This document shows, one piece after another, positions 11,321 through 32,703 of a stretch of 32,790 nucleotides of DNA. The stretch is taken from NCBI GenBank assembly GCA_021159005.1, contig JAGGSN010000018.1:1-32790 (forward strand), written 5' to 3'. A program made the position numbers and the translations under genes. This DNA comes from Candidatus Zixiibacteriota bacterium (GTDB taxonomy: Bacteria > Zixibacteria > MSB-5A5 > UBA10806 > 4484-95). Numbering within the stretch: position 1 is the first letter of the stretch; each line of letters opens with the position of its first letter. Under the pieces are notes generated by a model that was not told where the DNA came from, did no database searches, and saw only the letters and a program-made list of their open reading frames with translations.

Positions 11321-11350
11321 TTGACACAAACCATCAACCGATACTATCAT
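11321..11350 (+). promoter_or_regulatory. Promoter of the two-component operon, predicted leaderless
   Basis: A perfect -35 TTGACA (11321-11326) and a -10 TATCAT (11345-11350) are 18 bases apart. The kinase ATG begins 7 bases after the -10 box, at the expected transcription start, so the mRNA may have no leader. Confidence 0.55.
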
Positions 11351-11356
11351 AAGCGT

Positions 11357-13375: not shown

Positions 13376-13379
13376 GGAT

Positions 13380-14714
13380 ATGCGAATACTCGTAATAGAT
13401 GATGAAGAAAGCCAGCGCAAAATACTTTCGGGATATTTAGAAAAAAAAGGGCATAATGTCAGAAATGCTGCCTCCGGTTCTCAGGCTTTAGATATGCTTG
13501 CCGAAAGCGGGGCAGGGGTCGCCATCACTGATATGCGTATGCCCGAAATGGATGGCTTAACGCTGTTACAGGAAATCGTCAATATCTACCCGGATATGGC
13601 GGTGATTGTTATTACCGCATACGCTACTATAGAAAGCGCTATCAAGGCAATGAAAGCGGGTGCTTTTGATTATCTGTTTAAACCGATTAATCTCGAACAG
13701 TTAGATTTGATGCTTATAAAAATAGAACAAAGCCAGCTTGTAATTGCCGAAAACCGATACCTTAAACGCAAGCTGGAAGAGATAGATAATTTCCCGGATT
13801 TAATCGGCGAATCGCAGTCATTCAAAAAAGCGCTGTCGGATATCTCGGTTGTTGCTAAATCTGATTCGACAGTTCTAATCAGGGGCGAATCGGGCACCGG
13901 CAAGGAGCTGGCGGCTCGGGCAATACATTTCAGCTCATCTCGAAAGGATAAGCCGTTTTTAGCGGTAAATTGCGCCGCTTTGCCGGAAACATTGCTCGAA
14001 TCGGAGCTATTCGGCTATGAAAAAGGTGCCTTTACCGGCGCGACCAAGAGACGTCTTGGACGATTCGAATTAGCCGATAAGGGCACGCTGTTCTTGGATG
14101 AAATCGGCGATTTGCCCCTGCCGATTCAAATAAAGCTGCTGCGAGTGCTCGAAAGCAAATCGTTTGAACGTCTGGGCAGCGCTTATGCAATCGATGTTGA
14201 TATACGGCTTATTACTGCCACTAACAGAGACCTCGAAAGCAAAATCAATGATGGCACGTTCCGGGAGGACTTGTATTACCGTCTTAATGTAATCCCGTTA
14301 AATTTGCCCCCATTGCGCGAGCGAAAAGATGACATTCTACCGTTAGTCGAGCATTTCATTAAGAAATTCAGCGTCAAGTCAGGCAAGAAAATCAAAGGGA
14401 TTACACCGCCAACGCGAGATATTCTGATGACGCACAACTGGCCCGGCAATGTCCGCGAACTGGAAAACGCAATCGAACGAGCGGTGGTCATGACTCGCTC
14501 GGACTCTATCGATACGGATAGCCTAATAGCTTTTGCCGTTTCCGATACAAAGGCGGAAATGGCAGCTGACATTCTCAATTTAGCCGAACTTGAAAAGCGC
14601 GCAATAACAAAGGCATTAAAGCAAACTAATGGCAAACAGATTGAGGCTTCTGCCATATTGGGCATACATCGCAATACCCTGCGTTCGAAAATGAAGCAGT
14701 ATAGGCTAAAATAA
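13380..14714 (+). CDS. NtrC-family sigma54-dependent response regulator
   Basis: This is a 444-residue activator with three domains. The receiver (1-120) has acidic pocket DDEE, phospho-acceptor D51 in [12 protein letters not shown]79 and K101. The AAA+ domain (about 140-370) has Walker A GESGTGKE (169-176), the sigma54-contacting GAFTGA (216-221) and Walker B TLFLDE (236-241). A Fis-type helix-turn-helix ends the protein ([19 protein letters not shown]). It would be phosphorylated by the kinase encoded just before it and then activate sigma54 promoters. I found no convincing GG-N10-GC sigma54 promoter in this window, so its targets are probably elsewhere. It converges on the HDOD gene with a 23-base gap. 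Confidence 0.96.
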
Positions 14715-14737
14715 ATCTGATTGACCGCATCAAGAAA

Positions 14738-15934
14738 TTATGATACAGCAGCCATTGAAAAGTTGCGAAGATTACTTATCTGGTTTGTTAAATTAAGCTT
14801 GGTAAGATATTCCATATCTAAGGCTGAATTTTCATCGTCTTGAATATTATTTTGCTTGTCATAGTCTATAGCATAAGCAAGATGAACCGTTGTAAGTACG
14901 TTTATCATAGGGCTTGGCATTTTATGCGGCATATAATGCAAAGCCACTGCTTCCAATATTGAATCCGATAGACCCCATAAAGATAATAAATAGGCGCCAA
15001 TTTCGGCATCGCTCACGTCTAATATCTCTATCTGGGCTTGATATAACGGAATTGAATTGCTTTTTGCCAACTTTATAGATTCGGAAAATGCGGTCTTGAA
15101 ATGTGTCAACATAACAAGTTTTCCAACATCATGAAGCATTCCTGCTATAAGCGCATCTTCAGAGTGGGGTAATCCTAAAATCGTTGCATAAGTTCTAGCG
15201 CAGGCGCTTATTGATACAGAACGGTTATAAATGCTTTCAATTGAGAAGCCGGGCACTTTAGGATCATCAAATTGATTAAAGGCGCCTACAGCCAGAACTA
15301 AGCTTTTAACTGTATCAAGACCCAAAAGATTAATAGCATGCAGAGGATTTTGGATATGTGCCTTAAGACCAAAAAATGCCGAGTTAATCATTTGCAGAAG
15401 TTTTACAGTGATACTAACATCCTGTTTGATAAGGTCTGCAACTTTATGTATGGAAACATCTTGCGATTGAAGTTCCACTGCTAACTGTTTGAATATTTTA
15501 GGAGGGCTGGGAAGCGATTTTATTGAGGAAATAGTGTTAAAAATGCCATCGCTTTTAAGAATACTGCGCATATCGATAGAATTATTGATTATTTTTCTTA
15601 GTGTATTTGGGTCGCATGGTTTGGCGATAAATTGATGAACATATTCCATTGTTTTCATTATAAGTCTTTTATCGGCGCAGCTCGATAGAATGAAGCGTAC
15701 AATGCCGGGATAGAGTTCGCTTACCTCCTTAAGCAGTTGGTCGGCGTTCATATCTGAAGTAATCATCTCGCTGACAATTACTTGAAATGAATGTTCCTGC
15801 AGTGCTTTCAGGGCTTCAGCACCACTGCCAACAATCTCCAAATCCCATTTATCCTGCAAACTATTGACGGTTTGCGGATTATTTCTGATAGTCATTAGAG
15901 GGTTATCAACGAATAGTATTCTATCTTTTGACAT
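14738..15934 (-). CDS. HDOD-domain signalling protein with degenerate receiver
   Basis: This is a 398-residue protein. The N-terminal 120 residues fold like a response-regulator receiver, but the active site is changed: the acidic pair is FVDN (only D10) and the phospho-acceptor position is Glu (E56 in VIVSEMITSDMNADQ). The late lysine in FIAKPC (K105) is kept. A Glu here can mimic constant phosphorylation. The C-terminal HDOD domain (about 139-330) starts LPSPPKIFKQLAVELQ and includes GMLHDVGK, although HDOD proteins generally lack full HD phosphohydrolase sites. HDOD proteins take part in signalling and motility control by unclear means. The start has GGAG 6-7 bases upstream. It is divergently placed from the tRNA-Leu region and apparently transcribed alone. 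Confidence 0.88.
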   Translation of the reverse strand: MSKDRILFVDNPLMTIRNNPQTVNSLQDKWDLEIVGSGAEALKALQEHSFQVIVSEMITSDMNADQLLKEVSELYPGIVRFILSSCADKRLIMKTMEYVHQFIAKPCDPNTLRKIINNSIDMRSILKSDGIFNTISSIKSLPSPPKIFKQLAVELQSQDVSIHKVADLIKQDVSITVKLLQMINSAFFGLKAHIQNPLHAINLLGLDTVKSLVLAVGAFNQFDDPKVPGFSIESIYNRSVSISACARTYATILGLPHSEDALIAGMLHDVGKLVMLTHFKTAFSESIKLAKSNSIPLYQAQIEILDVSDAEIGAYLLSLWGLSDSILEAVALHYMPHKMPSPMINVLTTVHLAYAIDYDKQNNIQDDENSALDMEYLTKLNLTNQISNLRNFSMAAVS

Positions 15935-17030: not shown

Positions 17031-19169
17031 TTAAGAATTAATATTCAATTCCTCGGTACTTGCCTCCTTATTGACGAGTACTTTTCTTATGGCTTTGCCC
17101 AGATGCTGCATGGTATAGGGTTTTCTAATATAAATACCAACCCCAAGTGTTTCCGCCTTTTTTACCCGATCAGTTTCGGCAAAGCCACTTGCTATAATAG
17201 CTTTCTGTTCCGGATGGATTTTAATGATTTCAATATAAGTATCCAAACCATCAAACCCTTCTTCCATAATCATATCCAATATCACTACATCGACGCTTTT
17301 ATTCTTAAGATATTTCACGGCAGCATGGCCATCAGCAACAGTTTCAACGTCATAACCCAAGCTGGCCAATATTGTCGCTGCCAATTCTCTTTGTTCTTGA
17401 ATATCATCTACAACCAATATTTTTTCGCTTCCATGAATATCTACTATTACTTTATTATCCTCAGTTGTTGTTATATCCGTAACAGGCAAATAAATTATAA
17501 AATCAGTTCCATGATTTACTTTACTTAGAACATCTATATACCCATTGTGATCTTTTGTCACGCCATATACTATTGCCAGTCCCAAGCCGCTACCGCTTTT
17601 CCCCATTTCCTTTCTAGAATAGAAAGGCTCAAAAATGTGTTCAAGATCATTCTGCTCAATTCCTAAGCCTGTATCGCTAACAATCACTATAACATATTCT
17701 CCTGCCTCTATATTATTAAAACCACTGTTCAATTTCTCTAAATATTTATGTTCTGTTTTAACGGTAAGCTGACCACCTTGAGACATCGCCTCCATTGCGT
17801 TAATAATTAGGTTCATTATTACCTTATAGAGATGTGATTCTGAGCCGTGTATATTTTTAAGGGCTTTATTTAATTCCGTTTTGATAACTATATTATTATG
17901 TTTAGATTTAAGCTTTAAGAAACTAGGTGATTCCATATACGATTCAATGATGTCGTTAAAATTTAGGGGTACCATTTCGTAGCGTCCCCTTCTAGCCAAA
18001 GCAAGAAGATCCTGAACAACCTCTGATGCTCGCAGCGCGGATTTTTCGATCTTTAAAATATCTTTCATAATTGGGCTATCCTCGACTATCTTCATTCTAA
18101 TCAGTTCCGGATAGGCTACCAGCGGCCCAAGTATATTGTTTAAATCATGAGCTACTCCCCCAGCGAGAACTCCAAGAGATTCCATGTGTTTAGCCCGTGA
18201 AAGCTTCTCTCGCAATTCTTGTTTCTCTTTTTCAGCTTTTTTAATATTTGATATATCAGTAAATATTCCTATAGTTCCATAAACACTTCCATTATTATCA
18301 AGAAGCGGTGTTGCAGAGACGAATATTTGACATATTTGCCCATCTTTTCTTTTTAATGCAAGCTCATACTTACTTAGTTCTTTACTTTTTATTTTTTGAG
18401 TTTCCCTGATGGTCTTGCTTTTATTTTCTTCGCTTATAAAATTTCTAATGTTTATGCCTATCAACTCGCTTTTGGTATAGCCGAATATCTTACAGGAGGA
18501 TTCATTGGCAAATAGGATTTTCCCATTTATGTCGGTAGTTATTATTCCATCGGATATATTCTCTACTAAACTGCGATAATTTTTCTCACTATGCTGCAGC
18601 TCTATAAATAGAAATGAATTTGCTATTAGGGGAGATATAGTATTTATGAAGGCTGCGATTAACTTGCTCTCTTCTCGATCAAGGGATTTTTCTCCTATTC
18701 TTTCACCAAGACCGATGATGCCGATTAATTTATCGTTGTGCAGAAAGGGAACAATTATTTTTATACCAAAATTCTGATGAATGTATTCAAGATTTTCAGA
18801 TTCGTCTATTAAATGTAAATCATCTACCCAAAATGGGTCAATATTGCTTGCGAACTGCTTTTGAAGGGCTTTTGATTGCAATAAACCATTAATTTTTTTA
18901 CTTTTTCTTAATTTGCCCGTACCAAAATATAATTCCTTTTTGAAATTTGATGTGGGATCCCATATGGAAATAAACACAGTCGGTATCGAAAACTGCCCTG
19001 ATATAGTTAGCATTATAACATTTATGAGATTATCAAAATCCGATATTTTTATAAAGTCTTTAGTCAGCTTAGATAAAGTATTAAACGCAAGCATCTGCCT
19101 GTCTATTGAGAGCTGGCAATCCAAATACTCCTTTGATTGATATTGTTGGTTTCTTGTATCTTCTAACAT
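17031..19169 (-). CDS. Hybrid histidine kinase (GAF-PAS-HisKA-HATPase-REC)
   Basis: This 712-residue protein has no membrane segment, so it is a cytoplasmic sensor kinase. Order: a GAF-like domain (about 41-190), a PAS domain (195-312, LVENISDGIITTDINGKI), HisKA with the phosphorylated histidine in GVLAGGVAHDLNNILGPL (H341), HATPase boxes NLIINAMEA (453-461), SDTGLGI (498-504) and GSGLGLA, and a C-terminal receiver (583-700) with D632 and K683. The HDLNN H-box is typical of HisKA kinases with attached receivers. It is the last gene of the leftward train. The STAS gene before it ends TAG TAA directly before this ATG, so the two are co-transcribed. No separate output regulator adjoins it. It may be the target of the partner-switching proteins; that is inference. 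Confidence 0.93.
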   Translation of the reverse strand: MLEDTRNQQYQSKEYLDCQLSIDRQMLAFNTLSKLTKDFIKISDFDNLINVIMLTISGQFSIPTVFISIWDPTSNFKKELYFGTGKLRKSKKINGLLQSKALQKQFASNIDPFWVDDLHLIDESENLEYIHQNFGIKIIVPFLHNDKLIGIIGLGERIGEKSLDREESKLIAAFINTISPLIANSFLFIELQHSEKNYRSLVENISDGIITTDINGKILFANESSCKIFGYTKSELIGINIRNFISEENKSKTIRETQKIKSKELSKYELALKRKDGQICQIFVSATPLLDNNGSVYGTIGIFTDISNIKKAEKEKQELREKLSRAKHMESLGVLAGGVAHDLNNILGPLVAYPELIRMKIVEDSPIMKDILKIEKSALRASEVVQDLLALARRGRYEMVPLNFNDIIESYMESPSFLKLKSKHNNIVIKTELNKALKNIHGSESHLYKVIMNLIINAMEAMSQGGQLTVKTEHKYLEKLNSGFNNIEAGEYVIVIVSDTGLGIEQNDLEHIFEPFYSRKEMGKSGSGLGLAIVYGVTKDHNGYIDVLSKVNHGTDFIIYLPVTDITTTEDNKVIVDIHGSEKILVVDDIQEQRELAATILASLGYDVETVADGHAAVKYLKNKSVDVVILDMIMEEGFDGLDTYIEIIKIHPEQKAIIASGFAETDRVKKAETLGVGIYIRKPYTMQHLGKAIRKVLVNKEASTEELNINS

Positions 19170-19172
19170 TTA

Positions 19173-19529
19173 CTATTTCTCAATACCACAAAATCCAGCG
19201 GCTTCTTGTATATTAGTTCTAATCGTCATATAGCTGGCTAAATCCAAGACTTTAAATACGTGTAGTATATTATCCGAAATATTACATAACACTATATCGC
19301 CTCCTGCTTCTCGTGATGTTTCAACATTGCTAAGTATTGAGCCAACACCGGCTGAAGAAAGAAATTCCAATTCGTTCATATCGATTATGATATATTTGTA
19401 GCTTTCAGCCTGGAGTGCAGTGATTGTTTCGAGCATTTCGCCGGCATTACTGTTATTCAATATTTTCCCGGGGTTGATAATAATTGTATCATCCCCAAGC
19501 GGTTTTTTGCTTATATCGCGGCTACTCAT
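19173..19529 (-). CDS. STAS-domain anti-sigma-factor-antagonist-like protein
   Basis: This 118-residue single STAS domain is of the RsbV/SpoIIAA type. The phosphorylation loop reads NELEFLSSAGVGSIL: S59 aligns with the regulatory Ser of DSSG, the preceding Asp is Ser (S58) and the second Ser is Ala (A60). It should be phosphorylated by the RsbW-type kinase domain encoded just upstream, dephosphorylated by the SpoIIE phosphatase, and bind a partner only in the unphosphorylated state. Start: GGAG 8 bases before the ATG; the first 8 bases overlap the preceding gene. No sigma factor or obvious partner other than the kinases is encoded here. Confidence 0.9.
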   Translation of the reverse strand: MSSRDISKKPLGDDTIIINPGKILNNSNAGEMLETITALQAESYKYIIIDMNELEFLSSAGVGSILSNVETSREAGGDIVLCNISDNILHVFKVLDLASYMTIRTNIQEAAGFCGIEK

Positions 19530-20298
19530 AATTGTTGCTCCATCTTTTTTCCAATGTTAATTTATTCATACCGTTGTCGCTGTAGGTATAAGAAATATCA
19601 TCAATTAATTTTTTTATTATACTTAACCCAAAACCTCTTTTTTGGCGTTTCTTGGCTGCCTCTAATGGATGAAAATCTGTCATTTTTTCAGTTGGATTAA
19701 AAGGCAACCCATTGTCTTCAAATTGCATCACTATTCGATTATTGAAAACCTTGGCTTTAAAAATTACCTTATTGCTGCCATTGGTTGTCCCATGTGTACA
19801 GATATTATTGCCAACTTCATAAAAAATTATTATTAAATCAAAGCTAATATATTTTGTTAGGTTTATACGTATTAAGAATTGTTTAAATTTCTCTAAAGCC
19901 TTATTAAGGCTCTCGTTATCAGCAATAAATTCATCGCGGTATATTTCCGGAGAAGCTGATATTTCAAACGATATAAATTCCGTTCGATCTATTGTTTGTG
20001 AATCGCCGTCAAAGTTAAAAAACTCTGTCAAATTTAGTACTTTTAGGACGCGAATTAATTCTGGAGTAGGCCACAAAAGACTCATCTTTATACCTTTTTC
20101 TTCAAATATTTCTCTCGCTTGCCATAATAATCCTATATGAGTAGACGTTGTTTGCTTGAGTTGGGAGCAATTTAGTTTTATCGGTAATGAATGTACATTA
20201 CTTAAATTTTCCAGATGCTGTAAAAAACTTTGTTCAGCGTTTTCGGATAATTCAATTGGGACCATTATGGTATTATCGACCTCATTAACGAGTTTCAT
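19522..20298 (-). CDS. STAS - RsbW-type serine kinase fusion
   Basis: This 258-residue protein joins two roles usually on separate chains. Residues 1 to about 95 look like a STAS domain (IKLNCSQLKQTTSTHIGLLW aligns with the DSSG loop, here T-S-T-H). Residues about 120-258 form a GHKL kinase of the RsbW/SpoIIAB anti-sigma type, with N-box FYEVGNNICTHG, ATP-lid motifs FEDNGLPFNP and RGFGLSIIKKLID, and all ATP-binding residues apparently intact. It should phosphorylate the neighbouring STAS protein, while its own STAS part may sit on the kinase as a built-in partner. GGAG stands 7 bases before the ATG; the gene overlaps its neighbours by 14 and 8 bases. The STAS call is the weaker half. Confidence 0.85.
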   Translation of the reverse strand: MKLVNEVDNTIMVPIELSENAEQSFLQHLENLSNVHSLPIKLNCSQLKQTTSTHIGLLWQAREIFEEKGIKMSLLWPTPELIRVLKVLNLTEFFNFDGDSQTIDRTEFISFEISASPEIYRDEFIADNESLNKALEKFKQFLIRINLTKYISFDLIIIFYEVGNNICTHGTTNGSNKVIFKAKVFNNRIVMQFEDNGLPFNPTEKMTDFHPLEAAKKRQKRGFGLSIIKKLIDDISYTYSDNGMNKLTLEKRWSNNYE

Positions 20299-21907
20299 TT
20301 GTGTTCTCCATCAATTGGATATATTTTATGTCGGTAATTTTTTCACACCACTTAAGGGCAATAAGCGTAATGTCATCATATTGTGGCGCAGATCCTACAA
20401 ATGCTTGGTGTTGTTGAAGGACTTCATCTACTATTTCATCTGCTTTAAGATGTTTAAATGATTTTATAAGCTGCATAAAAAGGTCCATTCCGAATTCTTT
20501 ATTATTCGAGTTGAGCGCTTCATTGATTCCATCAGTGTACTGGATTATCAAATCATTCTTAGCCAACGAGAGATGACCGGTTTTGATTCTTTTATTAAAT
20601 TGTTCAGCAGGCATAAGTCCCAATGGATATCCGGTAGTTTGTATTAATTCGGCATTTCCACTGCCCCCATCAATTTTTATCAATGGATTGTGTCCGGCGG
20701 AAGCAAAATCAAGCTGCCCCGTATTTTTGTTTAAAAGCCCATAGAACATTGTTACAAAAGTTCCCCTTTTCAGATTTGGCCTTAGTTCCTGGTTGACATG
20801 TTTTAATAACTCCGCCGGCTGTATGATTGATCTGGTAAACTCCTTAATAATATCGCGAGTAAGCAGCATAATCAGCATTCCAGGCAGAGATTTTCCGGAA
20901 ACATCGGCTACGACAAAGGCCAGAAAATTATCGTCAATTTCAATAAAATCATAGTAATCTCCGCCAACTTCTTTGGCGCTGTAGTATTTTCCGGCAAACT
21001 CAAATAGTTCTGATTTAGGGAATTCTCGGGGTAAAATATTAGCCTGAATCTCCCTGGCGATTTCCAGTTCTCTGGCCATCCGCTCGTTTTCAATCAGATT
21101 ATTTTGAGCGATATTTAATCTGGCGGCCATAACCTTTAAGGTCTTAGCTAGATACCCAAATTCATTTTTGTCCTTCACAGAGAAATCAAATGAAAACTTT
21201 TCAAAATCAATTTGCTTTAAATAATTGGTGATTATACTGATAGAACGAAGCTTTCTACCCAATATTATCAATGTTGATGATATGCATAGGATAATTATTA
21301 TCACGGTTAAAAGAACAACGGTTAAGATTGATGTTTTGCGCGCAATTGTGATTTGTTTATCGGATGATGCCACCACCAGTTTTCCCAAACTCAAATTGTT
21401 TTCTATAACAGGTACAGCAGTAAAGACAGAATCCTTGCTAATTTCCAGTGATTCACCTGGTTTCAGCAGCTCGGGGAAAGAGCCGGATGTTACATCCGGC
21501 ATTTTCTCTGATGTTATCACTTTTACAATATCAGTATGAGCTATAAATATACCTTTTTGATTTGTGATACCTGCCCAATATACATCGGGATTTTCAGCGG
21601 CTAGTTTTTTACATATATTATTAAGCAACAGTTCATCGGGATCTTTAGATGAGATGATTAGTTTCCCCGCAGAACTGGAATATGATCGAGACTGGGTAAG
21701 CAATTTATCTAAAACATTTCTGGTTGCAGATTCAACATAAAAACTGGTTATAAAATAGCCGGTAATCGACATTAGAAGAATAATTATAGATGATATATAC
21801 AGAGCAAATTCGAATCGAATCGATTTTTTAAATTGATGCTGCTCCGGCCATTGAATGGCATCATTATCGGGTTCAATTTTTTTAATTTGAGTTGTTGGAA
21901 AGTTCAT
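20285..21907 (-). CDS. Membrane SpoIIE/RsbU-type serine phosphatase
   Basis: This 540-residue sensor phosphatase has two membrane segments (about 34-55 and 192-216) around a 135-residue periplasmic sensor domain, then a HAMP-like linker with coiled coil (217-295) and a PP2C-type SpoIIE domain (about 300-518). Metal-binding acids are present: GGDYYD (D317, D320), ADVSGKS (D335), YTDG (D459) and QYDDITLIAL (D511/D512). It would remove phosphate from STAS proteins when the periplasmic domain senses a signal. Its start lies 26 bases inside the end of the PorV-like/TPR gene, and its end overlaps the STAS-kinase gene by 14 bases, so the module is made in step with the outer-membrane protein. Confidence 0.93.
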   Translation of the reverse strand: MNFPTTQIKKIEPDNDAIQWPEQHQFKKSIRFEFALYISSIIILLMSITGYFITSFYVESATRNVLDKLLTQSRSYSSSAGKLIISSKDPDELLLNNICKKLAAENPDVYWAGITNQKGIFIAHTDIVKVITSEKMPDVTSGSFPELLKPGESLEISKDSVFTAVPVIENNLSLGKLVVASSDKQITIARKTSILTVVLLTVIIIILCISSTLIILGRKLRSISIITNYLKQIDFEKFSFDFSVKDKNEFGYLAKTLKVMAARLNIAQNNLIENERMARELEIAREIQANILPREFPKSELFEFAGKYYSAKEVGGDYYDFIEIDDNFLAFVVADVSGKSLPGMLIMLLTRDIIKEFTRSIIQPAELLKHVNQELRPNLKRGTFVTMFYGLLNKNTGQLDFASAGHNPLIKIDGGSGNAELIQTTGYPLGLMPAEQFNKRIKTGHLSLAKNDLIIQYTDGINEALNSNNKEFGMDLFMQLIKSFKHLKADEIVDEVLQQHQAFVGSAPQYDDITLIALKWCEKITDIKYIQLMENTNETR

Positions 21908-23897
21908 TTAGTCTCTCTAATTCGTTATTGGTTCTATCGATGTATTTTTTAATTTCGGCATTGGCAGGATCAAGTTTCCTTACTTTTTCCCACATTTCAA
22001 TCGCTTGCTTAAGTTTGTTGCACCCATAAAGTTCAACTCCGGCATATTTATAAGCATTGGCAAGATATTCTCTCACAGCTTCATAATCCGGCGCCAATTG
22101 CTCAACCTTCTCCCATTGAATAATTGCCTGATGCAAGTCACCTTTCACGAAAAGCTTTCGGGCTGCACTATAGGATTCCTCAACTTCTTTAAGCAGTACA
22201 TCACTGAGAGGTTTGGATATTCCATCAGCTCTATGAACGACTGGTGCAGAGTTTCTGCTCATTTTTTCAAGTATATTGTTATGCAAGTTTAGGCATAATT
22301 GGTGTTGCGGATAAAGCGTCAATGCCGAGTCAATGTTGACTAATGCCTTATCAAAGTCATTTTCCGAATAAGCGCTGGCGGCAGTTTCCCGGTAACGCTC
22401 AAATATAACCCGCTTATAAATCGTGCTCACCCTGTTATCTTCAGCGGCAAATTGCTTGATTTTTTGAACAGCCGAATATGCCTGGTTCAGTTCGCCATAA
22501 CTTAATAAGGAATCAATCAGCGATAGGTGTTTCCTGATCATCTCCTCTTTTGAAGCGATTTGCTGAATAGAATCATCTATTCGTTTTATAAGATCCAATG
22601 TTTCTTTGGAAACAGAATCTATGGATAAAGCAAGATTGGCATAATAACGGGCATCTATATAATTTTTGGATTCAAGCTTTGCTTGGGCAGAATCATGATA
22701 TTCGCGGTAATGCTTTTTATTGTTAATCTCGGTCAAACGAGACTTCGCTTTGGCTCCCAGTTGATAAATATTGCTGGTATCGATACTATTAATTCGCGCT
22801 AAGAACAATGCTCTCTCGAAAAAACTTATAGCTTTTTCGAGACTATCCAAACCAGCCGATTCCTGTCCTTTATGTACCATGTCGTTTATTATTTCTAAAT
22901 TATGCGTTGATAGCTGCTTATTCATTAAATCGTTGAATTCAGTTTCGCGATCCTGAGCTCTTCGTTGCCTTCTTTCACCCATAGATGCGCCGAAAGTCAT
23001 TGTGATGCTGAACATGTGCAGGCCGCCCATGTCTCGTCCAACATAGGCGTAATCGAAGTTTAATAATTTATAGTTGATTCCACAACCGGCAGAAAACTTG
23101 TTGCCACGCAGGCCGCTTCTGAGAGAAAGAATATCATATAAGCTATACTCCAGCCCAAAGGCCAGAGTTGATTCGATATCTTCAACCTTTGTAAACTTTG
23201 CCGTCATCGTCAATGCCTGATTCCAGCTTGGTTTGGGCAACAGGCGTACAGCCAAACCAAAATTGCCTCCGATAGGATAGGAGACACTCTCATCAGCCAG
23301 TTTGGAACTCAGGCTGATTAGGTTTCTACCAACAAGAGCTAATGAATAATATTCCAGCCAATTTAAATGAGTTGAGATTTGCCTGGCGACGGATAAGTTC
23401 AAGCCGGGAGATGAAGTTGTGCTGTAGGTATCCAGCGAATGGTGTTCCATGTTTAGGGCAAAACCGAAATCATATTGTGAAATGGCCTTACCGTAAGCTA
23501 AGTAAAATCCCAATCGCTCATCCTGAATATAACCCTTAAGAAAGTTATGAACATCCCGTTTTTCAATGCCGTTTATGCCAAGGCGAAATATGCCCAGACC
23601 AAAACTTCCATAATCTAATGTAGGAAAGACAAAGCCCATATATTGATAGGCAACGTCTGAATCGTATAGACGGCTATAAAAACCCCCAAGCGATATTCTA
23701 TCGGCCCGAGTCAGTCGCGAGGGGTTCCAGTATGGAGCGGTGGTGTTATCGCTGATAGCAAGATTAGACCCGCCGAGTGAAAGTTCCCGGGCTCCGGTAC
23801 CCATACTGAAAGGCGATTGAGTGCCGGCATCATCGGAAGCAAATGAGCAGCCGAAAGCCAGAATAATGCAGGTCAAATATGTTAATAATGTCCTCAT
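21882..23897 (-). CDS. PorV/UPF0164-like outer-membrane protein with C-terminal TPRs
   Basis: This 671-residue exported protein has a signal peptide (1 to about 20). It is followed by a beta-barrel-like part (about 23-310) starting SPFSMGTGARELSLGGSNLAI and then APYWNPSRL, the characteristic opening of PorV/PorQ/UPF0164 proteins. After a charged linker come helical repeats (about 330-665), the last two clear TPRs (AIIQWEKVEQLAPDY and AIEMWEKVRKLDPANA). PorV-type proteins carry type IX secretion substrates across or to the outer membrane. The upstream neighbour encodes just such a large protein with a C-terminal sorting-type domain, and the genes overlap by ATGA. The periplasmic TPRs could contact the phosphatase sensor domain encoded next. 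Those interactions are inference from order and domain type. Confidence 0.82.
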   Translation of the reverse strand: MRTLLTYLTCIILAFGCSFASDDAGTQSPFSMGTGARELSLGGSNLAISDNTTAPYWNPSRLTRADRISLGGFYSRLYDSDVAYQYMGFVFPTLDYGSFGLGIFRLGINGIEKRDVHNFLKGYIQDERLGFYLAYGKAISQYDFGFALNMEHHSLDTYSTTSSPGLNLSVARQISTHLNWLEYYSLALVGRNLISLSSKLADESVSYPIGGNFGLAVRLLPKPSWNQALTMTAKFTKVEDIESTLAFGLEYSLYDILSLRSGLRGNKFSAGCGINYKLLNFDYAYVGRDMGGLHMFSITMTFGASMGERRQRRAQDRETEFNDLMNKQLSTHNLEIINDMVHKGQESAGLDSLEKAISFFERALFLARINSIDTSNIYQLGAKAKSRLTEINNKKHYREYHDSAQAKLESKNYIDARYYANLALSIDSVSKETLDLIKRIDDSIQQIASKEEMIRKHLSLIDSLLSYGELNQAYSAVQKIKQFAAEDNRVSTIYKRVIFERYRETAASAYSENDFDKALVNIDSALTLYPQHQLCLNLHNNILEKMSRNSAPVVHRADGISKPLSDVLLKEVEESYSAARKLFVKGDLHQAIIQWEKVEQLAPDYEAVREYLANAYKYAGVELYGCNKLKQAIEMWEKVRKLDPANAEIKKYIDRTNNELERLNELSNNSN

Positions 23898-26800
23898 CTT
23901 ATCACCGCAATTTTCCTTCTAAAGCATTCCTCGCGCCCCGAAGTATATTTGGCTGTAATTCGACAGAAATATGTCCCGGAAACCACTTTAAGACATGAAT
24001 TATTGAAACCCATCCAAGAATCGCTTTGATATGAACCTGCCGGACGGAATGAATTAATTGTTACGTCCTTGACAGCATCGCCGGTTATGGTGAATATGGT
24101 TATATCAATAGTTGCATCTTCTGCCAGAACGAATCCAATAATGGTCTTCTCACCCCGTGAGGAGTGAAAGGGATTTGGATAGTTAGTAAAAGAGCGTTCA
24201 AGGTTAGCTGCTGATATCGATATCTCAGTTGCCTGAAGTGGGTACGAACCTTCAATTAATGTAGTATATATTGTATCCCCCAGATTTTTATCAGCCATTT
24301 CCAGGAATGTTGAGTCTTCGAAGATTATAACATAATTGCCAAGAATTGATTCGTTTTTAATGTCGCATTTAAGTGTTATGGGAATATTGCTTCCCCAGGA
24401 TACGTCGTAATTGTCTTCAATCGGAATTACCAGACTATCACTCGTCAAAATGCTATCAAAGGCGACTTGTTGACCATCGAGCATTAGATATATGGCTTCA
24501 AATATATCGCTTCCGGAAACGGACGATAAACCATCAAGCGTTCGCTTCTTAAAATGCCCGCGTAAACCATATATGCTTAAATCTCCTTGTGGATTAGGAT
24601 TATCATACACAATGATTCCCTCGAATATAGTTAGTTGGTCTTGACCCGGAAACCCGATTTTCAAGGGTGGATTCTGCAATTTCAGGTTTGGCCGACCTGC
24701 CGGCAAAAAGATGCGTGTAATACTTGTCGAAAACGGGAAGTCTATATCACATCCGTTAGCAATGCTGATCCCCGGATAGATTGAAGTATCAGCCGCATCA
24801 CGCAGGATTATTGAATTTTCCGACTGTACGACTAAAGCAAAATGATCAAAGGAAACATCGCCTTCGATATCTGCGACTAAATCAATATTAAGGTTTTCGC
24901 TGGGATTAATCAGCAAACCGGTATCCGATAAATTGAAAACTGCCGAACCATATAGTATTGGAACAAATGGCTGGTATTCTATTGGGCTATCGGAAATCCT
25001 GAAGCCGATTTTATCGAATAAACGATCAGGGTTTAATAGTTCGCCAAGACTATCAAGAACTGTTATCTGTATATCATACAGTCTAATGGGCGAATGAAGA
25101 CTGTCTGAAGGATAGCTAACGTTAAAATCAATCAGCGATAATGAATCTATGCCGCCTATTATCGATGAGGGTAGAGATGGAATCAAACATATTTCCGGTG
25201 CGGAAGCGGGTTGTCTAAACTCTGTCCAGCCGGAACTAATAGGGAAAGCCGAACCCTCGGATATTATCAGAGTATCCGTTGCGACCCCAAGTTGTGAACC
25301 GGAATTAAGATCACGAACCTCAAAGTAAGTGCTGTCGTGAACAACAAAATTGAAACCGGGATATGTCGTCTCATCTTTAATTGAAACCATCACTTCAAGG
25401 GTGTCGGTGTCGCCGGGATTTAAAGTAACCGGAGAAGCAAGTTGAATAGTCTGTAATGATGTGTCGGTCTCAAAGTCGTTCAACAATCCAATAATAAATG
25501 GTCCCCTGCCGATGGCGACTTCATCCAGCACGGATGTGATATTAATAGAGTTCCATAAACTATCGACCAGAACAAACGAGAGACTCGTAAATTGGATTTG
25601 CGAGTTGCCGGTTATTCCCGGATGCCGCAATCTCAACCGCAATATTTTGGCATATCTCTGGCCAAAATTCACCGTTTCGTTAAGCATCGAAGTATATGAT
25701 ACAGCCATTTGCTGCGAAGGATCATCTATACGGCAGGAAGCTGTTTGCATCGGAAAAACTACACCCGTATCTAATGGAACAGTTTGCAGGCTGTTTTCAT
25801 CAACGATTTGAATCATACTGCTGTTATCGATTGCCAGCATAAAATCGGAGGCTGATGCCTGGCTATCAATATCCACAAGCAAAGTATAAAGCTGTTGTTG
25901 TGATGGCGGAACTATTACCGGGCTGCTAAATACCAAAGGGACGGTTGTCTGCGCCGGAATATCTTCCAGAACGACCATATTATTATAGCCTGCAGATAAA
26001 ACCATTCGACTGAAAACCTCATCTGCATTCAATGGTTCGCCATTACTATTTTTAATGCTTATCTGCAGGCTATCGAGACGCAGAGATGCTGCCGTATTCT
26101 CAGTGTCAGGATGAGCATATTGCATACTAAAAGGAAAAATATTGGTCTGACCTCTAATTACTGCCGTGGGAATAGAGCTGATTAGCTGAATATAAATATC
26201 CGATGGTGAATCCTGTAGTGTAACCGTATTAGTCCGAACGATCGATGAAGAATCAGGTATAAGCGGTGCCATAGCACGAAACCGCCAGTAAACTTCACCG
26301 GTTTGGATAGCCGTGTAATAATATAAGAATTCAACAGAATCACCACTGGCCAGAGTTGCAGGTCCCGAAAAACTGCTGTCATAAACAACAATTGTAGAAT
26401 CGTTAACACTTATTACCTGGGCATATACACTATCCATAGGTTCCGTTGAAATGTTTTCAACCGTAAGCCCAACTTCAATCGTTTGACCTATCGAACGGGT
26501 TTGAATAAGCGGTCTATAGGAAACTCTTATTTCTGAGTTGGTGATATTGAAAGTTGCAGAACCAATCAGCGGATTATCGAGTGGACCGTCATTTAACGAT
26601 TTAAACTGGCAGCCATTTAGCGGTATAGTCCCCTGAAAATAGATGTCTTGAGAAGCTAAACTGCTGATATCTGCAAGCAGGAATAGCGTCGGTGGTTGTT
26701 CGTCAACTTCAATCTCAAGAGAGTTAGCAGTCCATGTCAATCCCGAATATACAAATGAACTAACGAACAGATCACTATTTTGCCAGATGTCATCGCCATT

Positions 26801-29800
26801 AATGTCCAACCAAATTTCCAGGGAAGAAATATCGCTGGTATCGGCATCTCCAATATTCCCGACGGTTACTGATTGCAGAGTATCTATCAGGTTGCCATTG
26901 GAAGCGGGGCGAAAGGCAAATAAAGTAACGGAGGTATCTCCTGGGCTTAGCGTCCTTGATACTAACTCGATTTCCTCATACTGAGAAAATACCGATCCAT
27001 TTATTATAAGGTAGCCTCCGCTAATAACGGGCAGATCGCCGTTGATATTGACAGATTGCGAGAAGGTTAAATCCGAAGGATTGGAAATTGAAATCGCCAG
27101 GCTATCCGAATCAATTGCATTCGAGGGAATATCTGCAACCATAAAGAAATAAAATAACGATTCCGGAGGTATTGCAATGTTAAATCCGGAAAACCTAAGA
27201 CTCCCGTCATTAAAATAGCCCGTTGCCAGCAGCGAATCATTATCCATAATTCTATTCTTATTTGTATCGAAAAACAAGGATACCTGTCCCAGCTCGCTGT
27301 CTGAATATTCCTGGGCAGCATTACTATGCGATATATTATTTGTTTGGATTGCCTGCAGATTCTGAGTGTCGCTTATATAACCATTATACAAGGCTGCGGC
27401 AAGCATAACATTATCGGAGCTTCCCGGTGCCGCCGTATCAGATTGTTCGGGGACCGAAATTACGGTAATGCGGTTTGATGGAAAAATAAGATGAGGTTGA
27501 GGATTGCCTATGTTTTCATCATCCGCGCCGGTGGTTCCCGATCTATACTCGATTCCCTCAACCGAGACCTCAAGTTGAATTGTTCCCCCTTCAAATTGAG
27601 CATTAGCAATATCAAGAGTAACAAAGAACCGTCTGCCGGAAGTATTAATCGGATATGCCAGACTCGCTAAAGTCCAAATTCCGGCATTAAAAGAAAACTG
27701 TCCTATCTCACTGTCGTCTGCCGTAAAACCGTTGCCGGTGATGTCAGCCCAGAGATTAAGAGTCAAATAGGTACTGGCATCCTGAAATGTGCCTGTATTT
27801 ATAAGCTGAATGCTGCTAAGACTATCCGAAGCATAGCCGTTACTCGGGAGGATGAAATCGAAAATCAATCTGTCTGTCTGGCCTCCATAAAAGGTGCTGC
27901 CGCTAATTGTGTTTACTGCAACATTATTAGCTGGAAATGCATTAATGACAAAATCATTTTCATTCTGCAGCGGAAAGTTGTCCGCGAGGTTAACCTGCGG
28001 TGTTAAAAAGAATCCCGTCGTATCCGGAATGCCAATATTAATCAGGTTTCCGTTTTTTGCATTTGCAGCGCTTAGAGCAGCCACAACTGATATTCCAATG
28101 ATGCTTCCCGAACCCGGTATCGATAACCCGGGCGTATTAAAAACTATGATCCCATCACTTAAAGCAGCGGTAGAAAGCAAAGTGTCTTCCAAGCCAAGAT
28201 CGGTATAATCACCATCTATGTTTGCATAAAGAAGCATGCTGTCTATCTGGCTATCGAGTTCACTTTGGCTTGCCCCATCCGGGTCGGTAGCCAGTAGATT
28301 CAGACTAAGGCTGTCTATTGATATGGACATAGCATAGCTGCTTATGAACTCCAAACCCAAAATCGGACCTGTGCTTTCTCCTGGAATGATATTTCGAGCG
28401 GGAATAGATACCGCAGATACCGCTAATTCCTCATCTGTTTGAATAATCACAGTATCCACAGGAACTATTTCAACGTCAAGCGGCCCGTCATTATTCGATG
28501 ACATCTCGAGGCCATGTAAAGGTATGCCAAGCGCAACAGTAGAAAGATTGGTTGGGTAAGCCGCTAATTTGACCGCAACATAATATCGAGTAAGTTGGTT
28601 TGTCAGTGGAGAATTTAAGCCGCTTATTGACCAATAGGCTCCGGTAAAAAATAAGAGCCCAAGACGAATTTCTTCCGCCTGTCCACCCCAGGAATTGCTG
28701 CCATCATCCATGAATAATATCATCGAATCCAGATCTGATTCATCCGCTGTACCCGAATTCCATACATTAAAACCATTAAGCGTATCCTCCTGATAGCCAT
28801 TGCGGGGAATGTCGATTATCATTATATTATAAAGCGAATCGCCCGGGCTTATTGTTGTCATACCCGTTGCAATCAAAGAAATCTGTTCGGATATTAAGCC
28901 ATCGATTATATTATATCCCTGAGAATTCAAAGTATCCGGACCCTGAAACATTGTTCCATCGCTTGTCTGGATATCCGTATCAGTTAAGACAAACAAGTCA
29001 AGAGAATCGCTATCATGAGGATTCGGGCTGATTACCGGACAAATAATAAATGAACGTTCTGATTCTGCCGGAATTGAAAAAGGTGAAAATAATAAAGTAA
29101 GAGTATCAAAAGTGAAACTTTCTGATGCAATCAGACTATCTATTCCGGTAATCGAAGTATCATTATCTGCATCAAAATACAAAGCCAGTGAATCAATGTT
29201 AGTTAATCTCTCGGCAAGATTGCCCGCCCCTCTGGAGGCATCATGCACGGTTACGCTTTCGATGTTTTTGGCTGTATCTAAACTATTATCAATGCGAAAA
29301 GCAAGTAAAGATGAGTTTGTCTGATTGGAATAAACAACGGTATTGCCAAGCGGGATTGCATGGATATACAATTTCGGAATTACTGCATTCATTGTTTCGG
29401 ATGTATCTGTAATTGCATTAATGTCAGATAGTACGATGATTTCACCGGAGCCCTCCTGGTCTGAGGTAAATAGACCAGTAGAATCTATAGAGCCGGATGA
29501 AAATGTATGCGACCAGGTAAGTACTCCCGGATAAGTCTGGAAATCGTTGCTGTCGAGAGCTTCAACATTAAACTGATAAGAGGAATCGACAAAAAGCGAA
29601 TCATAAAATGGTGTTATTGTCAGGCTGGCGAGATTGCCGGTTTCCAATGCCCCCATATCAGGGGTGCTGCCATTAAATATATAACCAAGATCAAGGCCGG
29701 CATCTATTGCCGGTGAAGAGCTTTTCAACCTGAAATTTTCCTGTGGGGGATTAGTAAACTTAGGAGATGCTGATATTCCGCCGGCAGAATCAACAACACC

Positions 29801-32275
29801 GCCAGAGTAATTTGCATTGCTGTTGCTCCAAACATCATTAAAACCGCATATATTCTCAACTCGACCAAAAATACCGTTATTATTCGATACGGTTATGTTA
29901 TTGAATATTCGCGCAGTGGTTACATTGCTTTCGAGATTGATTCCATCATTGGTGCAATTATAAGCTGTATTGTTATAAATATTATTATTCTCTCCCGAAT
30001 CAGAGATACTGATTCCATCTATGCCGGAATTGGTTGTAATGTTTCTCAGAATAAGATTGTCATCGCCAACAACCCTTATACCATTCCAAACATTATCATG
30101 TATATAGCAATTGGTTACAGCACATGAATCGCCGGTAAGATATATTCCGTTATGACCTGAATTGGTAAGCTCTAAACCATCGAGCTTAACATGTTTGGCA
30201 TTCAGCCATATAATTGATATAGCCAAGCCATTTATATCAAATACAGCATCGCCAACACCGAGTTTTCGATAAGTTATTGTGGATGTTTCCGTTCCCGATA
30301 AGGTCAAGTCAATATAATCTGTAAGAGAATATATTCCCGGTATCACGTTAATGGTATCGCCAGGCTGCAATATACCCAACTGATCGCCATTGTCTAACGA
30401 TGCCCAAGCATTGGCCGAATCCAATCCGCTATTGCCGTCATCGCCGGTAGGGGAAACGTAGAAGTTAATAGGTACATGTGTAGAATACTCTATAGCCCCC
30501 ATGTCTGGCGCGGCATCGTTATACGGATAGCCCAAATCTAAGCCTGCATCAATAGCGGGTGACCCTTCGCGAAGATGAAAATTATACGTTGATTGGTTTA
30601 CGAACTGAGGATCATCGGATATTCCACCTGCAGAATCAACAACTCCACCACTATAATCATTAGTACCGCTATTCCAAATATCGTTGTATCCGCATATATT
30701 CCCAGCTGTTCCATCGATTCCATCATCACCCCCAATGATGATATTGTTGAATACGCGTGCTGAGGATACAGAATTATCAATCCATATCCCGTCGAGAGGA
30801 CATGAATAAATAGTATTTCCATAGAATAAATTATTTTCGCTACCGTTGCGGTTAACAATTCCAGATTGGTTGGCGTTGTAAAATACATTTCTCAAAATGA
30901 GATTGTCGTTGCCTTCAATGTCTATTCCTTGCAGTCCGCAATCATGTATGCAACAGCCGGTAATAAGGCAGGAATCTCCGATTAACAGGATGCCATCGCG
31001 ACCGGGATTAATGATTTCAAGATTGAGAAGCTGTATGTTGTTACCTAAGACTTGTATGGCACATGTATCGCTGCCATCGGGATCTATGATTGCGGTTCCT
31101 GCTCCGAATTTACGATAAACAATCGGAAGTGCTTGAGTTCCGGATAATGTCAACTGAACAGTCGTTGAAACCGAATAAACACCGGGATATATATTAATCG
31201 TATCACCGGGATTTAGGATGCTTAGCTGATCGCCATTGTCTAACGATACCCAAGCGTTGGCCGAATCCAATCCGCTATTGACGTCATCACCGGCGGGGGA
31301 AACAAAGTAAGTAGTAATCGTATCAACGTCATTGAAGGCAACCCAATAAATCTTGGTGCTATTTTGATTAACCTCGTTTAATGATCCTACCTGGAAGCCA
31401 TCGGCTAAGAAAGCTTGAATTCCATCATCCAGATTGAAAGCCGAGTTAAAAAATAATGTACTATCTGCTGTCAGTGACGATGGGCGATGAACGGAATTAA
31501 TATTGCCTTCATTGGCTATTATTATATACTCAGGCTGAAAACCAACGTCTGTAATATCGCGGTTGTCATTGCCATCACCATTATACCAGTTGTCCGCAAT
31601 CCTTCCCGGCACAGAATTCCAGGCGATATAATGATAAATAACTCCTGAGTTATTAACTGTATTGTGATCACCAATTTGAAAACCATCAGCTTCGAAATCC
31701 TGGATTCTATTTGCCTTTTCATTATCATTATTAAATTGCATGCTTTGATTTATAGGTTCGGATGAGAAACGCTGCATGGCTCGTTTGTCTGCCTCGCTCA
31801 TTACTATCACATAACCAGGCTGAAAACCAATACTGTTTATGCTTCGATTGTCGGTGTCATCACCGGTATAGCTGCCAACAACCATTTCGCCCGCTTCTGC
31901 TTTAAAAGCGATCCAGTAGTAATCAACTCCGTTCCCATTCACAATGTCATCTCCGCCAACAACGAATCCATCAGTGGTGAATGATTGAATTATATCAGGT
32001 TGGAAAACAAAATCATCAACCAGCGATTTCGAGACATCACCAGTCATAGTTGAAGTGCGTATATAAGCGGATTCATTCAGGTTACCTTTGATGATTACCA
32101 CATCAGGTTGAAATCCCGGATAGTTGATTGGGCGATTGTCAGAGCCATCACCTTGATAGGTGCCTGCTGACAATTGCATAGCGGCAGATACGACACTAAC
32201 GTAAAATACGAATATCAATGAAGTGATAAATACTAAACGTATAAATTTAATTTCGAAAATTGCATATTTAAGCAT
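23894..32275 (-). CDS. Giant secreted beta-helix surface protein with sorting domain
   Basis: This 2793-residue exported protein has a signal peptide (1-32) and three 90-residue tandem repeats (about 37-314; GxYxGDGxDNRxI..GFQPxxVII...ADGFQVG...YYWIAF). Two right-handed beta-helix units (322-597 and 603-880) each start YVSPxGDDxNSGLDSANAWxSL and end SPAIDAGLDLGY...PDMGA. An Ig-like domain (883-965) comes next, then about 1700 residues of repeating beta-rich modules (GDSLxNIMIxxIPxNGY..DTL...SGT and similar). The FlgD-like C-terminal domain starts SFTNYPNPFHSS and ends SGTYFCRI...KIAVIR, as in type IX-type sorted proteins of FCB bacteria. Cysteines are few. The likely role is adhesion, glycan binding or a surface layer. 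No catalytic residues of a polysaccharide lyase can be claimed. The start ATG has only a weak ribosome site. Confidence 0.88.
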   Translation of the reverse strand: MLKYAIFEIKFIRLVFITSLIFVFYVSVVSAAMQLSAGTYQGDGSDNRPINYPGFQPDVVIIKGNLNESAYIRTSTMTGDVSKSLVDDFVFQPDIIQSFTTDGFVVGGDDIVNGNGVDYYWIAFKAEAGEMVVGSYTGDDTDNRSINSIGFQPGYVIVMSEADKRAMQRFSSEPINQSMQFNNDNEKANRIQDFEADGFQIGDHNTVNNSGVIYHYIAWNSVPGRIADNWYNGDGNDNRDITDVGFQPEYIIIANEGNINSVHRPSSLTADSTLFFNSAFNLDDGIQAFLADGFQVGSLNEVNQNSTKIYWVAFNDVDTITTYFVSPAGDDVNSGLDSANAWVSLDNGDQLSILNPGDTINIYPGVYSVSTTVQLTLSGTQALPIVYRKFGAGTAIIDPDGSDTCAIQVLGNNIQLLNLEIINPGRDGILLIGDSCLITGCCIHDCGLQGIDIEGNDNLILRNVFYNANQSGIVNRNGSENNLFYGNTIYSCPLDGIWIDNSVSSARVFNNIIIGGDDGIDGTAGNICGYNDIWNSGTNDYSGGVVDSAGGISDDPQFVNQSTYNFHLREGSPAIDAGLDLGYPYNDAAPDMGAIEYSTHVPINFYVSPTGDDGNSGLDSANAWASLDNGDQLGILQPGDTINVIPGIYSLTDYIDLTLSGTETSTITYRKLGVGDAVFDINGLAISIIWLNAKHVKLDGLELTNSGHNGIYLTGDSCAVTNCYIHDNVWNGIRVVGDDNLILRNITTNSGIDGISISDSGENNNIYNNTAYNCTNDGINLESNVTTARIFNNITVSNNNGIFGRVENICGFNDVWSNSNANYSGGVVDSAGGISASPKFTNPPQENFRLKSSSPAIDAGLDLGYIFNGSTPDMGALETGNLASLTITPFYDSLFVDSSYQFNVEALDSNDFQTYPGVLTWSHTFSSGSIDSTGLFTSDQEGSGEIIVLSDINAITDTSETMNAVIPKLYIHAIPLGNTVVYSNQTNSSLLAFRIDNSLDTAKNIESVTVHDASRGAGNLAERLTNIDSLALYFDADNDTSITGIDSLIASESFTFDTLTLLFSPFSIPAESERSFIICPVISPNPHDSDSLDLFVLTDTDIQTSDGTMFQGPDTLNSQGYNIIDGLISEQISLIATGMTTISPGDSLYNIMIIDIPRNGYQEDTLNGFNVWNSGTADESDLDSMILFMDDGSNSWGGQAEEIRLGLLFFTGAYWSISGLNSPLTNQLTRYYVAVKLAAYPTNLSTVALGIPLHGLEMSSNNDGPLDVEIVPVDTVIIQTDEELAVSAVSIPARNIIPGESTGPILGLEFISSYAMSISIDSLSLNLLATDPDGASQSELDSQIDSMLLYANIDGDYTDLGLEDTLLSTAALSDGIIVFNTPGLSIPGSGSIIGISVVAALSAANAKNGNLINIGIPDTTGFFLTPQVNLADNFPLQNENDFVINAFPANNVAVNTISGSTFYGGQTDRLIFDFILPSNGYASDSLSSIQLINTGTFQDASTYLTLNLWADITGNGFTADDSEIGQFSFNAGIWTLASLAYPINTSGRRFFVTLDIANAQFEGGTIQLEVSVEGIEYRSGTTGADDENIGNPQPHLIFPSNRITVISVPEQSDTAAPGSSDNVMLAAALYNGYISDTQNLQAIQTNNISHSNAAQEYSDSELGQVSLFFDTNKNRIMDNDSLLATGYFNDGSLRFSGFNIAIPPESLFYFFMVADIPSNAIDSDSLAISISNPSDLTFSQSVNINGDLPVISGGYLIINGSVFSQYEEIELVSRTLSPGDTSVTLFAFRPASNGNLIDTLQSVTVGNIGDADTSDISSLEIWLDINGDDIWQNSDLFVSSFVYSGLTWTANSLEIEVDEQPPTLFLLADISSLASQDIYFQGTIPLNGCQFKSLNDGPLDNPLIGSATFNITNSEIRVSYRPLIQTRSIGQTIEVGLTVENISTEPMDSVYAQVISVNDSTIVVYDSSFSGPATLASGDSVEFLYYYTAIQTGEVYWRFRAMAPLIPDSSSIVRTNTVTLQDSPSDIYIQLISSIPTAVIRGQTNIFPFSMQYAHPDTENTAASLRLDSLQISIKNSNGEPLNADEVFSRMVLSAGYNNMVVLEDIPAQTTVPLVFSSPVIVPPSQQQLYTLLVDIDSQASASDFMLAIDNSSMIQIVDENSLQTVPLDTGVVFPMQTASCRIDDPSQQMAVSYTSMLNETVNFGQRYAKILRLRLRHPGITGNSQIQFTSLSFVLVDSLWNSINITSVLDEVAIGRGPFIIGLLNDFETDTSLQTIQLASPVTLNPGDTDTLEVMVSIKDETTYPGFNFVVHDSTYFEVRDLNSGSQLGVATDTLIISEGSAFPISSGWTEFRQPASAPEICLIPSLPSSIIGGIDSLSLIDFNVSYPSDSLHSPIRLYDIQITVLDSLGELLNPDRLFDKIGFRISDSPIEYQPFVPILYGSAVFNLSDTGLLINPSENLNIDLVADIEGDVSFDHFALVVQSENSIILRDAADTSIYPGISIANGCDIDFPFSTSITRIFLPAGRPNLKLQNPPLKIGFPGQDQLTIFEGIIVYDNPNPQGDLSIYGLRGHFKKRTLDGLSSVSGSDIFEAIYLMLDGQQVAFDSILTSDSLVIPIEDNYDVSWGSNIPITLKCDIKNESILGNYVIIFEDSTFLEMADKNLGDTIYTTLIEGSYPLQATEISISAANLERSFTNYPNPFHSSRGEKTIIGFVLAEDATIDITIFTITGDAVKDVTINSFRPAGSYQSDSWMGFNNSCLKVVSGTYFCRITAKYTSGREECFRRKIAVIR
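30380..31300 (-). repeat. Near-identical 75-nt copies inside the giant gene
   Basis: Bases 30380-30454 and 31226-31300 match at 69 of 75 positions and lie 846 bases (282 codons) apart, the period of the two beta-helix units. They encode the GDDxNSGLDSANAWxSLDNGD start of each unit. Identity outside this segment is lower. Confidence 0.8.
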
Positions 32276-32703
32276 ATCATTTATAGGAATCGGTATTTAT
32301 AGCGAGGATGTTTAAATGTATCTGGTTAGAAGTAACAGGATAATTATAATTTTACAATCTGAAACACCTGTCTTATTTTGCGTAATTGTTTCACTTGGCA
32401 ACACTTTACCTACAGTATTTTGCATAATTAAATGACATAAAACTAATTCAAAATCATATAATTATGATATTTGATATTACCCCATTTTAACGGACACATT
32501 ATAAAGTAATTTAATTGTATTTCAAAGACAACAGGTGGTTTATCAGGAGTATTCCCATTATTTTATTCAATTACAGGTTGGGTTCTCAGACTAAGGCGGA
32601 TGAGGGGAGCGAACAAGCGGACTTAAAATATTTCATATTATTACACTGCTGTCCGGCCTTTTTTATAGAGTTCTTAAAATAATACCCAACAATCGAAACT
32701 TGC
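32276..32703. other. Gene-free region upstream of the giant gene
   Basis: No gene is seen. The leftward promoter of the 15-kb gene train should lie in the AT-rich 32276-32460 part; a TATAAT-like box on the minus strand near 32350 lacks a good -35 partner. Repeats are CTAAGGCGGATG (about 32591), an AAGCGGAC piece (about 32615) and a direct copy of the 'ctgtccggcc' repeat (32644-32667). Confidence 0.45.
32644..32667 (+). repeat. Third copy of the 'ctgtccggcc' dispersed repeat
   Basis: CACTGCTGTCCGGCC followed by a T-run matches 16161-16178 and, inverted, 16898-16917. Here too a CTAAGGCGGA-type piece is within 60 bases. Confidence 0.55.

Follow-up and report, generated by a model that had tools for sequence, protein, structure and literature searches.

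The window, a stretch of 32,790 nucleotides, makes up the whole of contig C18, part of a Candidatus Zixiibacteriota draft genome of 3.66 Mb, and between positions 17031 and 32275 it carries six leftward open reading frames (ORFs), which overlap by 4, 26, 14, and 8 bases at four junctions and are 3 bases apart at the fifth. An earlier reading of the letters alone (the sequence-only reading) had described this gene train with the same overlaps and gap, and the ORF coordinates match it exactly. All six genes, and all of their features given below, lie on the minus strand. Gene 1 (23894-32275) encodes a 2793-aa surface protein with a signal peptide, a variable N-terminal head (DUF7483, beta-helix), and a conserved stalk of about 1900 aa; gene 2 (21882-23897) a PorV-like outer-membrane barrel with a C-terminal TPR domain, 671 aa in all; gene 3 (20285-21907) a membrane PP2C/SpoIIE phosphatase of 540 aa; gene 4 (19522-20298) a STAS domain fused to an RsbW/SpoIIAB-like kinase; gene 5 (19173-19529) a single-domain STAS protein; and gene 6 (17031-19169) a cytoplasmic GAF-PAS-HisKA-HATPase-receiver hybrid kinase. 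Domain calls for the six genes were made with Pfam and NCBIfam. The statement that no sigma factor is included holds by domain scan for the six genes, and the downstream neighbours differ between loci; this search covers the six genes and those adjoining them, and the rest of the genome could still encode one.

A possible sigma-70-type promoter (TTGAAA-16-TATAAT; 32498-32525, minus strand) stands ahead of gene 1 and is graded as weak, since in scans of the region promoter matches, like terminator matches, were no commoner than in shuffled sequences. The remainder of the window contains a phage-type integrase (1702-2790), a class V aminotransferase gene with clearly raised G+C (3058-4242; 48% G+C at 3001-4000 against 33-37% on both flanks), and a restriction-modification pair in which a ThaI-type restriction endonuclease (296 bits) overlaps an N6/N4 DNA methylase (4477-6020). 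At 11321-15934, a histidine kinase is followed after 4 bases by a sigma-54 response regulator and then by an HDOD response regulator on the opposite strand.

The domains found in the gene 1 protein are Beta_helix, DUF7483, and a choice-of-anchor Q domain. The head (aa 1-870; 29666-32275) differs between relatives, with an aligned identity of only 0.00-0.21 over aa 1-800; it is a beta-helix in most of them, and others add DUF7483, Big_9, Laminin_G, or Big_2. The stalk (aa 880-2680; 24236-29638) shares 38-47% identity with relatives. The C-terminal 110 aa (23897-24226) form a type IX secretion system (T9SS) type A/FlgD-Ig-like sorting tail, YPNPF...FRRKIAVIR, which reaches 24.0 bits against TIGR04183 (cut-off 23) when scanned alone; TIGR04183 was not among the matches in the whole-protein scan at E<=0.05. 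The genome encodes T9SS machinery, namely the SprA translocon, the PorU sortase, and a PorV-family protein adjoining PorU, and PorU is present in 129 of 133 Zixibacteria genomes. What had been called a giant secreted beta-helix protein does carry a signal peptide; the beta-helix is only part of it, as about 1900 of the 2793 residues are a conserved stalk with a T9SS tail.

In gene 2, the barrel (aa 26-304; 22986-23822) has 14 strands in the predicted model (mean pLDDT 85.5) and is followed by TPR helices. A fold search placed PorV of the T9SS translocon (6h3i_F) first of 1426 matches, with an E value of 4e-11 and a TM score of 0.66 by target length. The PorV_fam score of 65.5 bits, found together with TPR matches, does not reach the NCBIfam NF033709 cut-off of 90 bits. 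Thus the earlier description as a PorV-like/TPR protein is borne out by the predicted fold, with a score below the family cut-off, and the suggestion of a secretion-type outer-membrane protein next to its likely cargo is supported in the form of a T9SS-type cargo/PorV pair. The TPR part spans aa 306-669 (21891-22982). Its last 104 aa are the most conserved stretch of the protein, and conservation is 0.54 in the final TPR part against 0.49 in the barrel. Both ends of PorV-like barrels face the periplasm; therefore, the TPR part should be periplasmic.

Genes 3 to 5 correspond to a complete partner switch. The gene 3 protein matches SpoIIE at 151 bits, and its AlphaFold model consists of two long helices flanking a sensor, plus a PP2C domain. 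The sensor core (aa 92-182; 21362-21634), predicted from the model to be periplasmic, keeps W111, H124, E152, and E169 invariant across 23 diverged sequences. The SpoIIE-type PP2C domain (aa 296-520; 20348-21022) is nearest in fold to SiaA and RssB, with the SiaA PP2C domain as the best fold match, and D317, D335, D459, D511, and D512, which we take to be the PP2C metal ligands, are invariant in the 23 sequences. In gene 4, the STAS domain is joined to HATPase_c_2 (54.5 bits); the kinase half aligns with SpoIIAB, its best solved relative, and E161, N165, D195, G197, and G224 are invariant. At aa 48-58 of gene 4, the fused STAS domain has a serine at the phospho-acceptor position and a histidine where SpoIIAA has a glycine; this domain might serve as a substrate within the protein or in dimer formation. 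The closest solved relative of gene 5 is SpoIIAA, and all 22 sequences compared keep Ser59 (codon 19353-19355), the counterpart in the alignment of Ser58, which is phosphorylated in SpoIIAA. Because genes 3-5 keep their catalytic and phospho-acceptor residues, the partner-switch chemistry appears, from these alignments, to be intact. The full partner-switching module of SpoIIE phosphatase, STAS-kinase, and STAS protein that was recognised earlier is thus present with all of its domains and catalytic residues retained.

The order of genes 1 to 6 is not peculiar to the window. With a gene 4 profile, 35 loci were found at 236-333 bits in 34 of the 133 Zixibacteria genomes, the next match being at 71 bits, and the operon spans six families. 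The sequence-only reading had let its proposal stand or fall with this gene order in relatives; the order is retained in nearly all loci long enough to judge, and a functional link between the genes, kept across the six families, is supported. The exact 4-base overlap at the gene 1/2 junction occurs in 24 of 28 loci, genes 2 and 3 overlap in 30 of 30, and all measured junctions show either an overlap or a gap of at most 22 bases; these figures leave out two loci that had been anchored on the kinase half of gene 6. Since the order recurs in nearly every sufficiently long relative locus, the train is far beyond chance and not a peculiarity of one place; its recurrence in some 35 loci rules out that the genes came to stand in a row by chance.

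Type I gene 2, defined by at least 325 bits over the matched length, is restricted to genomes that also have gene 4, with the sole exception of G082, in which the contig breaks off within gene 3. Degradation is seen in one type I locus, L055, with genes 1 and 6 absent and gene 5 reduced to a remnant. An alignment scan of the genomes with gene 3 returned at least four orthologues with an identity of 49% or higher, each of them accompanied by the operon to the extent that its contig allows, and genes 1 and 2 are absent beside 76 more distant SpoIIE genes among the matches listed. In one genome (G122:C1) a break within the phosphatase gene divides the operon into two parts about 550 kb apart (L220, L242), which overlap in the PP2C region, as a result of either a rearrangement or an assembly fault. 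Another genome, G081, has a second and more distant copy of the operon (L083; G081:C1:3472000-3491900), where a hybrid kinase on the opposite strand replaces the sixth gene.

The operon was not found in the other examined members of the window's own family. In a tree of gene 3, sequences of families f9 and f18 are intermixed, with strong support in places, and because of this the gene set has probably moved between lineages, as far as a single-gene tree can suggest. An occurrence outside the phylum, in a Calditrichota-labelled locus (L094) that is one of these orthologues, was rejected, as gene 4 of that genome agrees in both place and score with gene 4 of the Zixibacteria genome G117. No orthologue was found in 82 KSB1 genomes, where the best match had 85 bits and contained stop codons, and a search of plasmids with gene 3 gave matches to the phosphatase half only, the best of them with an identity of about 32%.

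The sixth gene is conserved only in part. Gene 6 of the window carries an N-terminal GAF-like domain (aa 5-190; 18600-19157), which is the part in common with the sixth gene of other loci, followed by PAS, HisKA, and HATPase domains and a receiver (aa 584-695; 17085-17420) that is absent from most relatives. In most loci the sixth gene encodes a GAF-histidine kinase of about 550 aa without a receiver, all belonging to one orthologous family, and longer hybrid-type kinases are confined to the window, L058, L223, and L224. The hybrid kinase that had been proposed as the sixth component is therefore a minority form, and as the conserved output it is ruled out, since only the GAF part is conserved. 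The first 190 residues of the window's gene 6 score 183 bits against the common family, compared with 39 bits for the best unrelated GAF, whereas its kinase half, at 78 bits, is no different from unrelated kinases (82 and 79 bits). In L058, L223, and L224 the kinase half has been exchanged too, but the middle domain is retained. Altogether, four loci combine a conserved GAF domain with a replaced kinase half. A constant N-terminal GAF with an exchanged catalytic half is what would be expected of a docking place for the STAS protein, and from these comparisons the GAF domain may be that place. The idea that the switch feeds the sixth protein is in this way supported indirectly.

A sister locus is present in many Zixibacteria genomes, in which a surface protein, a PorV-TPR protein, a fused kinase-phosphatase, a STAS protein, and a diguanylate cyclase occur together, some loci being without one part. 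It is like the window's operon in the surface protein/PorV-TPR input and the STAS switch, but differs in having kinase and phosphatase in one protein and a diguanylate cyclase as output. A cyclase is hence not foreign to the design. The sister PorV-TPR protein has about 610 residues and scores above the PorV cut-off in all seven cases tested (93-137 bits). The kinase-phosphatase unites an RsbW-type kinase, a sensor, HAMP, and SpoIIE, and a ParA-like ATPase is often also found in the locus. When 20 sister loci were picked by the kinase profile alone, a PorV-TPR gene stood beside the kinase in 13, a small TPR-only gene in three, nothing of the kind in three, and a contig end in one. The sister loci listed are L227-L234, L236, L237, L244, L247-L249, L252-L257, and L262. 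A linkage of PorV and partner switching restricted to the window's operon is ruled out by them. Two differently built switches adjoin the same kind of surface pair; therefore, a chance link of surface pair and switch is unlikely. The GAF regions of the sister cyclases score only 18-38 bits against the GAF of gene 6, and no argument was built on this similarity, since an unrelated GAF reaches 39 bits.

The genome of the window has its sister locus in two pieces. Contig C175 carries the surface/PorV-TPR pair (L090; G000:C175, 2-6966), and the switch is on C216 (L085; G000:C216, 2838-11800), where an HTH-tailed kinase-phosphatase, a STAS protein, and the cyclase come after an ABC1-type gene, with polysaccharide export genes next to the cyclase on its far side. 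Physical linkage is thus not always needed.

A proposed function of the operon can be potentially described as follows. On balance it is somewhat probable that the six genes form an operon for signalling across the envelope, with type IX secretion as its basis, in which information passes from outside to inside via the partner switch. Gene 1 would be a surface protein of T9SS type, and gene 2 would serve it alone as a PorV-like shuttle or anchor. The delivery, anchoring, or loading of the gene 1 protein would lead the periplasmic TPR domain of gene 2 to alter the state of the gene 3 sensor. Gene 4 would phosphorylate Ser59 of gene 5 and gene 3 would take the phosphate off, and the dephosphorylated gene 5 protein would then dock on the gene 6 GAF domain, thereby setting the kinase activity of gene 6. 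In the sister loci, a similar input and switch would have the diguanylate cyclase as output. We infer the action of gene 2 on gene 3, the binding of gene 5 to the GAF domain, the outside-to-inside direction, and the co-transcription of the genes. A course from the surface through PorV-TPR, phosphatase, and STAS protein to an output enzyme is supported because the input remains constant while the output enzymes are swapped. Against it stand those sister loci with a TPR-only protein, or nothing, in the place of PorV-TPR, as well as the sister locus divided between C175 and C216, the degraded L055, and the broken operon of G122.

Three other explanations bear on the same gene order. In the first, which seems rather unlikely, the signal runs from inside to outside, so that the partner switch and the kinase regulate the production or secretion of gene 1 via gene 2 without reading gene 1, and serve this single large surface protein as its own on/off control. 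Regulators often adjoin their target, and the tight junctions suggest co-expression; however, the regulatory genes here come after the structural genes and not before them. Bordetella BtrU and BtrW do act on the type III secretion process (PMC8256260), but the output of the sister locus is a cyclase, near polysaccharide export genes in the window's own genome, and not a secretion regulator. Moreover, gene 3 keeps a conserved sensor across the membrane, where the TPR part of gene 2 should also be. That same sensor is open to the second explanation, by which gene 3 senses a small molecule alone and the surface pair is merely produced in the same circumstances as the signalling genes, such as when cells attach to surfaces. 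The invariant W, H, and E of the sensor could bind a small ligand, and the sister pair and sister switch lie on separate contigs in the window's genome. Yet two loci of different build both link PorV-TPR to a SpoIIE partner switch, and the higher conservation of the last TPR part relative to the barrel (0.54 versus 0.49) is as expected of a contact surface, so that mere co-regulation of neighbours is judged unlikely. The third, a mobile cluster of unrelated genes kept by transfer without joint function, would suit the mixing of f9 and f18 in the gene 3 tree, with strong support in places, and the lack of the operon in the other examined members of the window's family, but it is highly improbable given a near-fixed six-gene order with overlapping junctions down to about 30% identity, which argues for selection, and given that no type I gene 2 occurs without the switch apart from the truncated case of G082.

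The outside-to-inside reading can be compared with several known systems. As in SpoIIE-SpoIIAB-SpoIIAA and RsbU-RsbW-RsbV, the operon combines a PP2C phosphatase, an ATP-dependent kinase, and a STAS protein, with the catalytic residues and the phospho-serine position kept. Unlike those switches, it has no sigma factor inside, its kinase is fused to a second STAS domain, a GAF-histidine kinase is the output candidate, and the surface protein and PorV-TPR come first. SiaA/SiaC/SiaD of Pseudomonas aeruginosa is a STAS-type protein switch, and it is closer to the sister, cyclase-bearing locus than to the window's operon. HsbR/HsbA of the same species resembles the operon in a STAS-type protein with a choice of partners (PMC6482189). 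Neither of these two systems includes a surface protein or PorV, in which they differ from the operon. The Bordetella partner switch BtrUVW is required for type III secretion (PMC8256260), and BtrU-BtrV-BtrW is similar to the operon in being tied to a protein secretion system; however, the system is of type III, there is no outer-membrane shuttle, and no histidine kinase is part of the module.

On the side of type IX secretion, the T9SS surface protein PorA of Porphyromonas gingivalis is believed to pass a signal on to PorXY-SigP (PMC7712824). Like gene 1, PorA is T9SS-tailed, uses PorV, and takes part in a proposed surface-to-cytoplasm relay (PMC7712824), but its pathway consists of a two-component system and an ECF sigma factor with no partner switch, PorA has only 246 aa, and there is no PorV-TPR fusion. 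The T9SS shuttles PorV and PorP/SprF share with gene 2 the barrel fold and, as in dedicated cargo-shuttle pairs, the position adjoining a T9SS cargo (PMC12618676), whereas gene 2 has a large TPR domain, is coupled to signalling genes, and falls below the PorV family cut-off. A literature search, outside which most subscription-journal papers lie, returned nothing joining partner switching with type IX secretion and nothing joining Zixibacteria with type IX secretion, and as far as was searched no described system has the same composition. Overall, the combination of partner switching with a T9SS surface pair is real and conserved, and the outside-to-inside mechanism proposed for it is credible. 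It is also possible, although this is put forward tentatively, that the loci represent a new class of signalling across the envelope, used throughout the phylum, where the receptor consists of a T9SS surface protein together with its PorV-TPR shuttle and acts on a partner switch whose outputs, a GAF-kinase or a diguanylate cyclase, are interchangeable.

How a cell knows that its surface proteins have been secreted and attached is largely obscure in Gram-negative bacteria beyond a few systems, and the operon is a compact, conserved, and testable case that links type IX secretion to partner switching. Output enzymes have been exchanged in nature while the GAF domain before them stayed constant, which points to a possible docking place of the STAS protein. 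For a phylum known almost only from metagenomes, the operon provides a first signalling theme, and the conserved cluster of surface protein and switch points to an undescribed way of reporting surface events to the cell interior.
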